A program made the translations under genes and the position numbers. A stretch of 52,081 nucleotides of DNA from an uncultured bacterium. GTDB lineage: Bacteria > Cyanobacteriota > Vampirovibrionia > Gastranaerophilales > Gastranaerophilaceae. Shown here in pieces: positions 28,555 to 32,228 of the stretch. Each line of letters opens with the position of its first letter. Position 1 is the stretch's first letter. The stretch lies in NCBI GenBank assembly GCA_903868125.1, contig CAIPUE010000041.1, forward strand, positions 1 to 52,081. The letters are read 5' to 3'. A model generated the notes under the pieces. That model was given only the letters and a program-made list of their open reading frames with translations. It ran no database searches and was not told the origin of the DNA.

Positions 28555-28680
28555 GGCGGGATGGCAATCCCGCCCTACTTAGCGATTTTGTTCATATTTT
28601 AACAAAAAGCGAAAAGTTGAAAGGTCAAAAAAGCTTGCAAGTCACCTCTCACTTTTCACTCTTTACCTATTCCAAACATT
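28555..28680. repeat. Hairpin repeat and short tandem-repeat arms
   Basis: GGCGGGAT (28555-28562), loop GGCA, ATCCCGCC (28567-28574), then CTACTTAG. After 28609, units like GCGAAAA, GTTGAAA, GGTCAAA oppose ACCTCTC, ACTTTTC, ACTCTTT, ACCTATT on the other side of an A-rich middle, forming a weak inverted pair that reaches the end of the next gene. Confidence 0.6.
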
Positions 28681-29084
28681 TCTTGTGCCAAGAAAATTCC
28701 GCCATAAGCCAAAAGTCCCGCTCCACAGAATTTGGAGAAAATTCCTTTTCCAACCAGTGTTCCTGCCACCAAGCCCAAAGGAATAAAGTTTTTCACCATC
28801 ATTGAGCCAAAACCTTTTGCATAGCCGATTATACTTGTGAAAAATCCTGATAAATTTTCATCTACATGATGTCTGAAAATCGACTTTTTAACTGTAGCCT
28901 GAATAATACTCGGGCTGTCGAGTTTTTGTTCATTAAAAAAATGTTTTTCTAAACTTTCGGCTTTATGATTTTTTTCGTATTTTGGTGCTTCAAGTTTACC
29001 CGCAATATGAGAATCGTAGAGAATTAGCCCTAAAGCTGCCCCTCCGACGGATTTTGTTAAAAAATTTGCAACACTTGAATTCAT
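28656..29084 (-). CDS. Orphan small membrane protein
   Basis: This 142-residue protein is not recognised. A hydrophobic Gly/Ala-rich segment lies near residues 10-24 (TKSVGGAALGLILYDS) and a second long one from about 95 to 138 (MMVKNFIPLGLVAGTLVGKGIF, then FCGAGLLAYGGIFLAQ). The stretch between them is polar with several His. It resembles the C-terminal glycine-rich part of the orphan protein at 6395. It is three bases downstream of the 29088 gene and presumably co-transcribed. Confidence 0.7.
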   Translation of the reverse strand: MNSSVANFLTKSVGGAALGLILYDSHIAGKLEAPKYEKNHKAESLEKHFFNEQKLDSPSIIQATVKKSIFRHHVDENLSGFFTSIIGYAKGFGSMMVKNFIPLGLVAGTLVGKGIFSKFCGAGLLAYGGIFLAQEMFGIGKE

Positions 29085-29087
29085 AAA

Positions 29088-29738
29088 CTATGCCTTTTTA
29101 CTTTCTTTTTCGGGTTTTTCTTGAACCTCAAATTCTTTTTTCACCGTATTACCCGACATTTTCAGCAAGATACTAGAAGCTTTCAGTGAATCTTCGCCAT
29201 AAGCCGTTTTTTGTTGTTGAATACTTTGTAAAAGAGTTTTACTTGTATCGTTTCCGCTTGCCACTCGAGATTCCAATGCCGCCATTGCTATAAATTTAAT
29301 CGGTTGATGTGGATCTTGAAGCATTTTGTTAACAAGTGCATTTAGTCCAACGTCATTTTTTCTGCTGTCATCTTCTTGAAGCCTTGATAAAACTTCTTTT
29401 GCACCCATCAATCTTACTTCTTTGTTTGAGTTATTCAAATAACCCTCCAACGTTTTAATATAATCATCTGTTAATTGGACTATTTCACGTTTTTCAATCT
29501 TTTTCTTTGTCGGTTCTGCAGTTTGCGGTTCTATCGGAGCAGGAATTGGCGGCTGGGAAAGGTTTTGGGTGTAATAATTCTGAGGATAAGCAGGCATTGT
29601 AGCATAATTTGTCGCATTAATGTTTGATGCCGGAACATTCGCACCAGGCGCAGCAACAGAAGGGTTAAATATTTGAATATTTACTCCCGAATAGTTCGGT
29701 ACTTGAACGTTTTGAGCTTGTCCAACCATATTTTCCAT
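29088..29738 (-). CDS. Orphan protein with Pro/Gln-rich start and HEAT-like helices
   Basis: Residues 1-75 are low-complexity, rich in Asn, Pro, Gln and Tyr. From about residue 85, helices such as LEGYLNNSNKEVRLMGAKEVLSRLQED and LVNKMLQDPHQPIKFIAMAALESRVA look like HEAT repeats, which mediate protein contacts. The C-terminal 20 residues are charged (QEKPEKESKK). No signal peptide or membrane span is visible. The gene leads a likely pair with the small membrane protein after it. The HEAT call is by eye only. Confidence 0.7.
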   Translation of the reverse strand: MENMVGQAQNVQVPNYSGVNIQIFNPSVAAPGANVPASNINATNYATMPAYPQNYYTQNLSQPPIPAPIEPQTAEPTKKKIEKREIVQLTDDYIKTLEGYLNNSNKEVRLMGAKEVLSRLQEDDSRKNDVGLNALVNKMLQDPHQPIKFIAMAALESRVASGNDTSKTLLQSIQQQKTAYGEDSLKASSILLKMSGNTVKKEFEVQEKPEKESKKA

Positions 29739-29851: not shown

Positions 29852-31114
29852 CTAATCTAGCTTAAATCCTTTCAATTGAGCCTTGTCATAATAGTTTTGC
29901 TGTTTATTTTGCATCTCTTTGTCGTATCTGTATTGAGTAAAAAATCTTGACATGCCCGCAACGAAAAGCCCCATAAAACCAATACTGAATAAAAACGGAG
30001 CCAAAACTATCGTTGATTTCTGCTTGAATAAATTCTTATATTCGGCTTCAATTGTAGTTCCTTTTCTGGTTGCTATTTTTTGTGCTAAATCAGGCAGTTC
30101 TGAAAGTTTCGGAACGGTTAAATCTTTGGCGATTATGTCTTTAAAAGAAGCTTTTTTGTGCAAAATAGCCTTAAAGCCTTTTTCAAACATCTCGCTGCCT
30201 GTTATTACATAAAAACCGACAAGCGGATATCTGTAGAGAACTTCCAATAAATTTTGTTTACCTCTGTCGTTTGCCGAACCGGTATAACCAAAAAATCCTG
30301 CAACCACGCAAGCCGTTAATTGACCTCTTGACAGTCCCAATTGCCCTTTGTTGTCCCTAAAATCAATACTGAAATATTTGTTGAAGGTCGCTGCTTTTTT
30401 AACGTTATTTTTGAATATTTTATTCCCCGGTGCTAAAATCCCTTCGCTCAAGGAATGTAGGGATTTTGAATTTTTACCCTTAGTTACAAGCAAAGCCGAC
30501 AACGCCAAACATCCTGCGAAAAGTCCGCCTGCCAGTTTAATATGTTTTTGGGCACTTTCTCTTACTTTGGACTGGTGTTCCGCGCTTTCTTTCTTGTCTT
30601 TGTTCAAATTAGCAATATTATTAAAATTAGCCTGTTTAAATACCTTCATAGTTAAAAGATTTTTAAGGTAACTGAGAGCATATATAAATAAAGGAATCGC
30701 AAGAGTTGAAATAGCGATAGCTGCCTTTGTCGGTATAAGCTGTTTCATATCCTCGCTTTTTACATTGCTCTGCAAAAGTTGTTCCGCAGGAGTCGAAATC
30801 ATTTTTTTAAGATTAGCGTCAAGTTTTTTGGAATAAAGTTTTCTGAAAAGTTTTTCACCCAAAATTTTCGGTCCATAATAAACCGCTATATTTTCTCCGA
30901 ATTCCTGAACTGACATATCTCCAAAATCAGCTGAACTGCGGACAAAAGGAACTTTAGGCCCCCAGTTTACTGCAATGTCTTGAGCACATCTGATATTAGC
31001 AAGTTCAGCATCAGACTCGTGCATCGTAATAAATTTTGCAACATACTGAGCTTTTTTTGAAAGAGTTTCTATTAAATTTTTAGAAGTTGGTATCGAACCG
31101 GTGGTAATTTTCAC
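29852..31114 (-). CDS. Orphan multi-spanning membrane protein
   Basis: This 420-residue protein is not recognised. It has hydrophobic segments near residues 130-150 (AAIAISTLAIPLFIYALSYL), 197-213 (GGLFAGCLALSALLV), 270-285 and 370-390 (LAPFLFSIGFMGLFVAGM). The N-terminal 110 residues are polar. Several groups of segments suggest an integral membrane protein, though nothing shows a transport role. It follows the peptide-gene unit at 31148-31334 on the same strand; whether the terminator there lets transcription through is unknown. Ribosome site AAAAGGATT precedes the ATG. Confidence 0.75.
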   Translation of the reverse strand: MKITTGSIPTSKNLIETLSKKAQYVAKFITMHESDAELANIRCAQDIAVNWGPKVPFVRSSADFGDMSVQEFGENIAVYYGPKILGEKLFRKLYSKKLDANLKKMISTPAEQLLQSNVKSEDMKQLIPTKAAIAISTLAIPLFIYALSYLKNLLTMKVFKQANFNNIANLNKDKKESAEHQSKVRESAQKHIKLAGGLFAGCLALSALLVTKGKNSKSLHSLSEGILAPGNKIFKNNVKKAATFNKYFSIDFRDNKGQLGLSRGQLTACVVAGFFGYTGSANDRGKQNLLEVLYRYPLVGFYVITGSEMFEKGFKAILHKKASFKDIIAKDLTVPKLSELPDLAQKIATRKGTTIEAEYKNLFKQKSTIVLAPFLFSIGFMGLFVAGMSRFFTQYRYDKEMQNKQQNYYDKAQLKGFKLD

Positions 31115-31147
31115 TTGAATAATCCTTTTTATGTTAAATATTTTGAT

Positions 31148-31186
31148 AAAAAAACAGCCTGTAACTTAAAGCACAGACTGTTTTTT
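31148..31186 (-). terminator. Intrinsic terminator after the 24-codon peptide ORF
   Basis: On the minus strand AACAGTCTGT, a 10-base loop and ACAGGCTGTT form a 10-bp stem with one G-U pair, followed by seven T and preceded by an A-run. It lies 20 bases beyond the peptide stop codon and 34 bases before the start of the 31114 membrane-protein gene. Confidence 0.85.
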
Positions 31187-31205
31187 CATTAGTTAAAACT
31201 TTTAT

Positions 31206-31280
31206 TTAACGCCAACAAAATTCGCCTGCACCAATTTGCAAGCTCCACCAATTATTCATATTTTGTTGTTGGATATTCAT
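31206..31280 (-). CDS. 24-residue Trp-rich peptide
   Basis: The ATG at 31278-31280 is preceded by AAAAGGAACATT, a clear ribosome site. The peptide starts MNIQQQNMNN, then a WW pair, SLQIGAGEF, and ends CWR before TAA (31206-31208): three Trp codons in 24, plus one Cys. A near-consensus promoter lies 26 bases upstream and an intrinsic terminator follows, so the unit is complete in about 150 bases. It could be a leader peptide that controls the downstream membrane-protein gene, a secreted or modified peptide, or a small structural RNA with a chance ORF. Trp clusters are the hallmark of Trp attenuators, but no trp gene follows. Confidence 0.6.
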   Translation of the reverse strand: MNIQQQNMNNWWSLQIGAGEFCWR

Positions 31281-31292
31281 AATGTTCCTTTT

Positions 31293-31334
31293 CTACGTAC
31301 GTAGCATTGTAACTAGAAAAAAAAATTTTGTCAA
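31293..31334 (-). promoter_or_regulatory. Near-consensus promoter with palindromic start region
   Basis: Read on the minus strand: TTGACA (31329-31334), exactly 17 bases, TACAAT (31306-31311). Immediately downstream, at the expected transcription start, is the perfect 12-bp palindrome CTACGTACGTAG (31293-31304), which could be an operator or the foot of a 5' hairpin. This is the strongest promoter in the window. Confidence 0.85.
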
Positions 31335-31371
31335 GAGGTTCGGACAACAAATCAGAATAAAATTTTATGTC

Positions 31372-31395
31372 GGTGCATATAATGCACCCTGCTTG
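31372..31395. repeat. Hairpin repeat, short copy
   Basis: GGTGCAT (31372-31378), loop ATA, ATGCACC (31382-31388), then CTGCTTG. The left flank AAATTTTATGT equals that of the hairpin at 10585, which supports one family despite the different stem. Confidence 0.65.
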
Positions 31396-31468
31396 TTAAT
31401 TGAGTGATACATAAATTCTAAAACCCCTAAAACGTAAAATTGCCTCGTAATGCGTTGGAATTACAAAA

Positions 31469-31497
31469 TTGTTACATAAAAAAAATATATGTAACAA
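31469..31497. promoter_or_regulatory. Inverted repeat TTGTTACATA/TATGTAACAA
   Basis: Two 10-bp arms (31469-31478 and 31488-31497) with an A-rich 9-base centre. The spacing is that of a dimeric repressor site or a weak hairpin. It lies in the long gene-free stretch between the peptide promoter and the putative plus-strand RNA. Confidence 0.4.
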
Positions 31498-31542
31498 AAT
31501 GTTGCAAGTTTTTTAAATTAGCTAATAACCGGTCAATTTTTA

Positions 31543-31628
31543 TTATGCTTGAATCTTTATGAAAGCATAAAGCTCTCTCTTCTTATTTAAACGGACAGGT
31601 CTTGTTATATAACAGGGCCTTTTTTTTT
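31543..31628 (+). ncRNA. Candidate small RNA ending in an orphan terminator
   Basis: A hairpin TTATGCTT/AAGCATAA (31543-31550 and 31563-31570) is followed by an unpaired pyrimidine-rich stretch and a long stem centred on 31608 (AGGTCTTGTTAT with ATAACAGGGCCT) that ends in nine T at 31620-31628. The terminator points rightward, but no plus-strand gene lies upstream within the window for more than 2 kb. The neighbouring genes are on the minus strand. The 5' end is not defined. Confidence 0.45.
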
Positions 31629-31694
31629 AGTTGAACAGGGGAATAGTATTCCAACTCTTGTCACCTCTCACTATTCACCATCCACAACTCACTT

Positions 31695-32228
31695 TTAGTA
31701 ATCGCCCGCAGAGACTTCTTCATCATCATCTTTTAAAGACGATAAATCGTCGCTATAAGTCGAATCAAAATCTTCAGGAAGCATCTCCGGTTCAGGCCAA
31801 ATCGTTTCCTCATCAAATCGACACGCATTCAAATTATAAGCGCCGGCAAAATCAGAGTTCGTTAAATCCGATTCCAAAAACACCCCGCCCGCAACATCAG
31901 CATCAGTAAAGTTGCAATAATGTATCGTTGCATAACTGTATTCAGCGCCGTTTAAAAGTGCCTCCGTAAAATCACTCTCCAAAACTGTTGCTCTTGTAAA
32001 TTCAACAGAGGTTAAATCTGAACCGCTAAAATTTATTAAAGCTAAATGAGAATCAGCGAATGAACTTGCATTCAAATCCACCCCCGAAAAATCTACATTC
32101 TCAAGTGTCAAATATGAAAAATCAGATTCACTCAAATCAATGTCTTCTTGATTTTTTTTCCATTTATTAAATTCCTGCGGTGATTTTTTAATTAAATTGT
32201 ATAACTCTTCTTTTGTATAATCGCTCAT
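31695..32228 (-). CDS. Pentapeptide-repeat protein
   Basis: From about residue 33 to 130 the sequence has a five-residue period with central Leu or Phe (DFSYLTLENVDFSGVDLNAS and onwards), which folds into a right-handed quadrilateral beta helix. The last 40 residues are strongly acidic (DDDEEV near the end). Such proteins can mimic DNA or act as scaffolds; acidic charge is compatible with DNA mimicry, but this is inference. The ATG follows GGAGAAAGGCAAT. It is 177 residues long. Confidence 0.85.
   Translation of the reverse strand: MSDYTKEELYNLIKKSPQEFNKWKKNQEDIDLSESDFSYLTLENVDFSGVDLNASSFADSHLALINFSGSDLTSVEFTRATVLESDFTEALLNGAEYSYATIHYCNFTDADVAGGVFLESDLTNSDFAGAYNLNACRFDEETIWPEPEMLPEDFDSTYSDDLSSLKDDDEEVSAGDY

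Follow-up and report, generated by a model that had tools for sequence, protein, structure and literature searches.

A compact unit on the minus strand of DNA from an uncultured, gut-type bacterium of the order Gastranaerophilales is very probably a ribosome-mediated transcription attenuator of the trp-leader type, which controls the membrane-protein gene at 29852-31114. This reading draws on the sequence parts of the unit, its conservation, the covariation of its RNA helices, constrained folds, synteny and the composition bias of the proteins encoded behind such leaders. The window, a stretch of 52,081 nucleotides analyzed as a whole, belongs to a 1.9-Mb assembly of 60 contigs, whose nearest named relatives are the 'Candidatus Gastranaerophilales' (phylum Melainabacteria in the NCBI taxonomy). 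A sequence-only reading had described a self-contained Trp-rich peptide unit and offered an attenuator leader, a signalling or bacteriocin-like peptide and a small RNA as options. The first of these is upheld, as the Trp codons and helices 1:2, 2:3 and 3:4 are conserved and the rest of the peptide is not, always 5' of the same membrane-protein family. The unit is not self-contained: it is the 5' leader of the membrane gene.

The promoter, ribosome site, 24-codon ORF and terminator of that reading were all confirmed in place. The sigma-70 promoter (31306-31334, minus strand) combines TTGACA (31334-31329), a 17-base spacer and TACAAT (31311-31306), and a TTGACA-type -35 is also seen 5' of related leaders. 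With 11 of 12 consensus positions it is strong, but it is not the single best promoter of the window, as had been claimed, being tied with two others that score 11/12 (20180, minus strand, and 5051, plus strand). The 12-bp palindrome reported at the presumed start site is present (CTACGTACGTAG, 31293-31304), but it is restricted to the window genome and its sister genome G001 and therefore lies outside the conserved unit. An SD-like AAGGAA (31285-31290, minus strand) serves the leader ORF, and SD-like sites occur in 55 of 110 Trp leaders. The ORF itself (MNIQQQNMNNWWSLQIGAGEFCWR, 24 codons, 31206-31280, minus strand) runs from an ATG at 31280 to a TAA stop at 31208-31206. Its tandem Trp codons UGG UGG (codons 11-12, 31245-31250, minus strand), the presumed stall site, lie directly before strand 1 of the RNA structure described below.

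Searches with the 24-aa peptide and with DNA showed that further genera and families of the order have the unit, likewise beside the same gene. We then surveyed upstream regions drawn from 113 genomes with group-1 orthologues of the membrane gene, and a Trp leader precedes the orthologue in all 113. The leader is a WW ORF starting from ATG in 109 and from TTG in two (those two identified by eye), and the remaining two (G009 and G061, also by eye) carry a single Trp; the Trp pair is kept in 111 of the 113. A WW pair by itself is not rare, occurring in 5 of 474 short ORFs of the window, and the leader unit stands above chance through its conservation and covariation and not through the motif. 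The leader peptides fall into a long type, …WWxL…G.(F/L)(C/S)W(R/Q)-stop, ending for example in FCWR-stop; a short type, …NWWRL-stop, with the stop codon inside strand 1; and a third type, …NWWRGLV-stop. Outside the Trp codons these types bear no resemblance to one another. Strong matches of a covariance model of the Trp leader are confined to positions upstream of group-1 genes.

The leader RNA folds with z = -4.1, better than all 200 of 200 shuffles, and its pairing strands can be followed along the minus strand. Strand 1 (GCUUGCA, 31237-31243) faces strand 2 (UGCAGGC, 31224-31230), which can pair either with strand 1 or with strand 3. The core of strand 3 (GUCUGUG, 31172-31178) is both the 5' arm of the terminator and the antiterminator partner of strand 2, and strand 4 (UACAGGCUGUU, 31163-31153) is part of terminator 3:4. 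This intrinsic terminator with its U run spans 31146-31189, with a core at 31182-31153 and the U run reaching 31146. We measured covariation in an alignment of 20 long-type leaders, using as a control the same alignment with one side slid by 1-3 columns. Pairing in helices 1:2, 2:3 and 3:4 is kept at 89, 87 and 91%, against 25-47% in the slid controls, and pairs changed on both sides number 5 of 7 in helix 1:2, 5 of 7 in the antiterminator 2:3 and 8 of 11 in the terminator 3:4. Strand 2 covaries with two different partners, which is the mark of a switch. Across 48 dissimilar Trp leaders of all types, the strand-2 region that follows the Trp codons paired more strongly with its own downstream region than with swapped ones (mean -23.5 versus -18.0 kcal/mol; z = -9.1, 0 of 5000 permutations), in a measure that counts 1:4 pairs besides 2:3.

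Constrained folds separate the two states. With W11 or W12 masked as if occupied by a ribosome, RNA made as far as strand 3 adopts 2:3; with the ribosome placed at the stop instead, the terminator results. Over its full length the leader RNA favors the terminator at equilibrium even when a ribosome is stalled on it, which means that the switch would have to act kinetically. By a strict rule, a terminator is present in 71 of 110 Trp leaders and absent from 39, some of which may act differently. The 5' and 3' ends of the long-type ORF (31206-31280, minus strand, in the window) can also pair in the free fold (CAACAAAA with UUUUGUUG), so that the Trp codons and hairpin 1:2 lie inside; this pairing may stabilize the untranslated state.

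From these parts we infer a stall at the Trp codons and a response to Trp, as follows. RNA polymerase would start at the 31334-31306 promoter, with a ribosome following on the 24-codon leader ORF. When charged tRNA-Trp is ample, the ribosome would pass W11-W12, reach the stop codon and cover strand 2, so that terminator 3:4 forms and transcription ends at about 31146. When Trp-tRNA is scarce, it would stall at the two UGG codons and cover strand 1, allowing 2:3 to pair before strand 4 is made; no terminator would then form and the membrane gene would be transcribed.

A complete small transcription unit, with a strong promoter, an SD and a terminator, is what one would look for if the peptide itself were the product (a signal, a bacteriocin or a membrane-active peptide) and the terminator just ended its transcript. 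We nevertheless consider this extremely improbable, since the peptides vary in length and sequence at the same place and the RNA architecture stays constant, and no maturation or export gene was recognized alongside the leader. That peptides of quite different sequence and length substitute for one another would not be expected if the peptide itself were functional, and this disfavors the signalling or bacteriocin-like option; an independent small RNA is disfavored by the constant synteny with the downstream gene. Very unlikely, too, is a nascent-peptide arrest leader resembling TnaC, in which the C-terminal FCWR-stop would stall on a small molecule such as free Trp and not on uncharged tRNA-Trp. 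The 24 codons, the Trp pair at 11-12 and the (F/L)(C/S)W(R/Q) end, conserved at the stop in the long type, fit such a leader. However, orthologues in other genera are preceded by …NWWRL-stop or …NWWRGLV-stop without that C-terminus, Trp codons and helices are the only features common to the leader types, and runs of Met stand in for Trp in paralogues. In the free fold the two ends of the long ORF pair with each other, and this may itself account for the C-terminal conservation. The arrest sequence reaching to the stop that a TnaC-type peptide would conserve was not found, short-type leaders of orthologues differing at the C-terminus or lacking it.

Two further alternatives keep the ribosome as the sensor or add to its action. 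Translational attenuation, with a stall that exposes the start of the membrane gene in place of a transcriptional decision, would suit those genera that keep 2:3 pairing without a clear U-tract terminator; in the window, however, the 3:4 hairpin carries a long U run and stands some 30 bases 5' of the start codon, and we give this reading little credence. It is also unlikely, if less so, that the released leader RNA or peptide acts in trans on other genes besides attenuation in cis. As long as Trp suffices, termination should release a leader RNA of about 150 nt, and one study reports trans activity of the Sinorhizobium trp leader peptide (PMC7298713), but strong model matches lie solely upstream of the membrane gene. 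Transcription attenuation in cis, set by the ribosome at the Trp codons, remains the reading that we prefer.

The controlled gene (29852-31114, minus strand) encodes a 420-aa orphan helical membrane protein and has a GTG start about 30 bases past the leader terminator, with an SD-like AAGGAT at 31127-31122. The claim that the unit precedes an orphan membrane-protein gene holds well beyond the window, with orthologues of this protein downstream of the leader throughout. A profile of the protein detected the family in 212 of 383 genomes of the order Gastranaerophilales. Pfam and NCBIfam hold no family for it, and the PDB no sequence relative. Its structure model (pLDDT 88.6) consists mainly of helices, about three of them strongly hydrophobic, and a PDB fold search with this model gave no credible match; middling VIA-align scores (best Z 6.4, rmsd 9.1) were set aside as within the chance range for helical bundles. 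A transporter acting alone would be expected to have more membrane helices than three. Our guess, drawn from regulation, gene absence and composition, is that the protein helps a Trp auxotroph obtain, scavenge or recycle Trp. The genes downstream (29088-29738 and 28656-29084) were discarded as a guide to operon function, as they adjoin the membrane gene only up to the sister genome.

The gene absence concerns trpA, encoding tryptophan synthase alpha, which was found above the cut-off in 8 of 39 genomes, all from families f2-f4 and f7; no hit in the window genome, or in any f1 or f6 genome tested, reached the family cut-off. The Trp-leader gene is present in 19 of the 31 genomes without trpA and in one of the eight with it (G034), a contrast confounded by phylogeny. 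For Met, only f2 yielded MetE, and no genome searched yielded the MetH activation domain. All such gene counts are bounded by incomplete assemblies and shared ancestry, and one missing gene, trpA, does not prove auxotrophy.

We further investigated whether relatives of the membrane gene carry leaders of their own. A second group of the family, 45% identical, has a member in the window genome (G000:C16:17748-19088; L061, L183, L387) behind a Met-rich leader, MMITNDTIEIMMTIMMMPDKGGRGCLS, and a terminator, and an orthologue in another genome also has a Met-rich leader, MQNNTMMMQMMMMQNLMSGGRCYACRMC. By a Met-rich criterion we gathered 38 second-group leaders, with one further locus lacking such a leader. 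The strand-2 regions of Met leaders favor their own downstream partners (n = 22, z -8.6). One of the weaker full-length matches of the covariance model is a leader rich in Cys (MKIKNSTSSNICCCCKILQGFYGYLC), which has a terminator of its own and precedes another orphan family. The second orphan family is represented in the window genome by G000:C29:28162-29673 (L343, L390), with a Cys-run leader, MKIKNSKSNNICCCCKIPQGFYGYLC, and its orthologues have leader runs of either Cys or Ser (UCN). Its structure model gave no PDB match, and kinship of the two orphan families was not accepted, profile comparison yielding weak N-terminal similarity alone (E 0.07). In G079 and G076, a Met-leader gene and a Ser- or Cys-leader gene are divergent neighbors (L398, L399). 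Scanning about 330 kb of the window genome for more attenuators, a sample in which the Met and Cys stretches were deliberately included, returned the Trp, Met and Cys units as the only convincing ones.

Distant homologues of the membrane protein occur in class family f9 (L392-L395, L397; E 1e-20 to 1e-55). There, WW leaders of unrelated sequence (…NTFCWWCLAIEGPPFSR, …NLMNWWWSALCRPPCSC and …SLCWWPCLYRPPVSR) show strong 2:3 pairing, and one homologue has a Met leader followed by a strong hairpin. Some f9 genomes hold tandem copies of the membrane gene. A third group of the family (L306-L313), with proteins of about 350 aa, is leaderless and often lies just 3' of a gene read as tatC; in several genomes it has a promoter-like motif, TTGACTGATAnnnnCTATCATCATTTAAT, with an inverted repeat.

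The proteins tend to avoid the residue sensed by their own leader. Trp stands at 0.2 per 1000 residues behind Trp leaders, where 28 of 30 proteins have none, and at 6.8 behind Met leaders; Met falls from 13.7 per 1000 behind Trp leaders to 7.1 behind Met leaders, and Cys from 9.6 to 3.8. The other ORFs of the window have 4.8 Trp, 18.6 Met and 11.1 Cys per 1000. Members of the second family contain less Cys when a Cys leader precedes them (p 0.008) and less Ser when a Ser leader does (p 0.001), both p values being optimistic as the sequences are related. As proof of Trp starvation, the avoidance of Trp is weakened by the distant leaderless group, which is also nearly Trp-free, and by some f9 homologues behind Trp leaders that hold 8-9 Trp. 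Better evidence comes from the Met/Cys contrast and from the Cys/Ser contrast inside one family, although both rest on related sequences that are not independent. Altogether, this composition pattern is the cognate bias expected of starvation proteins.

We tentatively propose, at somewhat less than even confidence, that the class to which the Gastranaerophilales belong has undescribed membrane proteins that starvation induces; every paralogue would answer through its own leader-peptide attenuator to another amino acid (Trp or Met here, Cys or Ser in the second family), help an auxotroph obtain or recycle the one that is missing and contain little of it. Leader-peptide attenuators reveal which amino acid a gene answers to, and they give a functional handle on widespread orphan membrane proteins of uncultured bacteria from the gut and the environment, pointing to Trp in one group, to Met in its paralogue and to Cys or Ser in the second family. 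They also show paralogues and orthologues re-wired between amino acids, with protein composition following, and make amino-acid acquisition by these reduced, apparently auxotrophic relatives of cyanobacteria testable.

The E. coli trp leader, trpL, consists of a short ORF with tandem UGG, a pause hairpin 1:2, an antiterminator 2:3 and a terminator 3:4. The present unit shares its tandem-UGG ORF and its 1:2 / 2:3 / 3:4 layout, but its target is an orphan membrane protein and not trp biosynthesis, the window has no Rfam match and trpA was not found in the window genome. At gathering score, Rfam, including Trp_leader and T-box, gave no match in the window, and at an E-value threshold over 31050-31700 it gave sub-threshold matches only, none credible. 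The position of the ribosome decides the outcome in the E. coli trp operon attenuator (PMC1183508). Actinobacterial trp, trpS and leuS attenuators and cys leader peptides carry double or triple UGG or runs of Cys codons (PMC1262725). The leaders described here resemble them in these runs, and some of the actinobacterial leaders precede genes outside biosynthesis. Their targets are nevertheless biosynthetic or tRNA-synthetase genes, unlike our orphan membrane protein, and terminators are missing from the actinobacterial cys leaders but not from the Cys leader in the window genome, behind which a strong one lies. In Streptococcus suis, the TrpX Trp-uptake system is under a T-box (PMC9382623), so that an RNA element senses Trp limitation and governs Trp uptake, much like the logic proposed here; as described there, however, it pairs a T-box riboswitch with the binding protein of a transport system, in place of a leader peptide and an orphan protein. 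Proteins needed during starvation for an amino acid are known to contain little of it (PMC4209129). Unlike the biosynthetic enzymes of that work, the proteins studied here are not known biosynthetic enzymes, and their bias tracks the codon run of the leader, across paralogues as well as within one orthologous family. A search of the open-access literature, with subscription papers outside its scope, found nothing relevant on leader peptides in Melainabacteria. The attenuation mechanism is of a known kind. What is new, within the reach of our searches, is its target family, the way in which paralogues and orthologues are wired to different amino acids, and a conservation that spans at least two families of the class.
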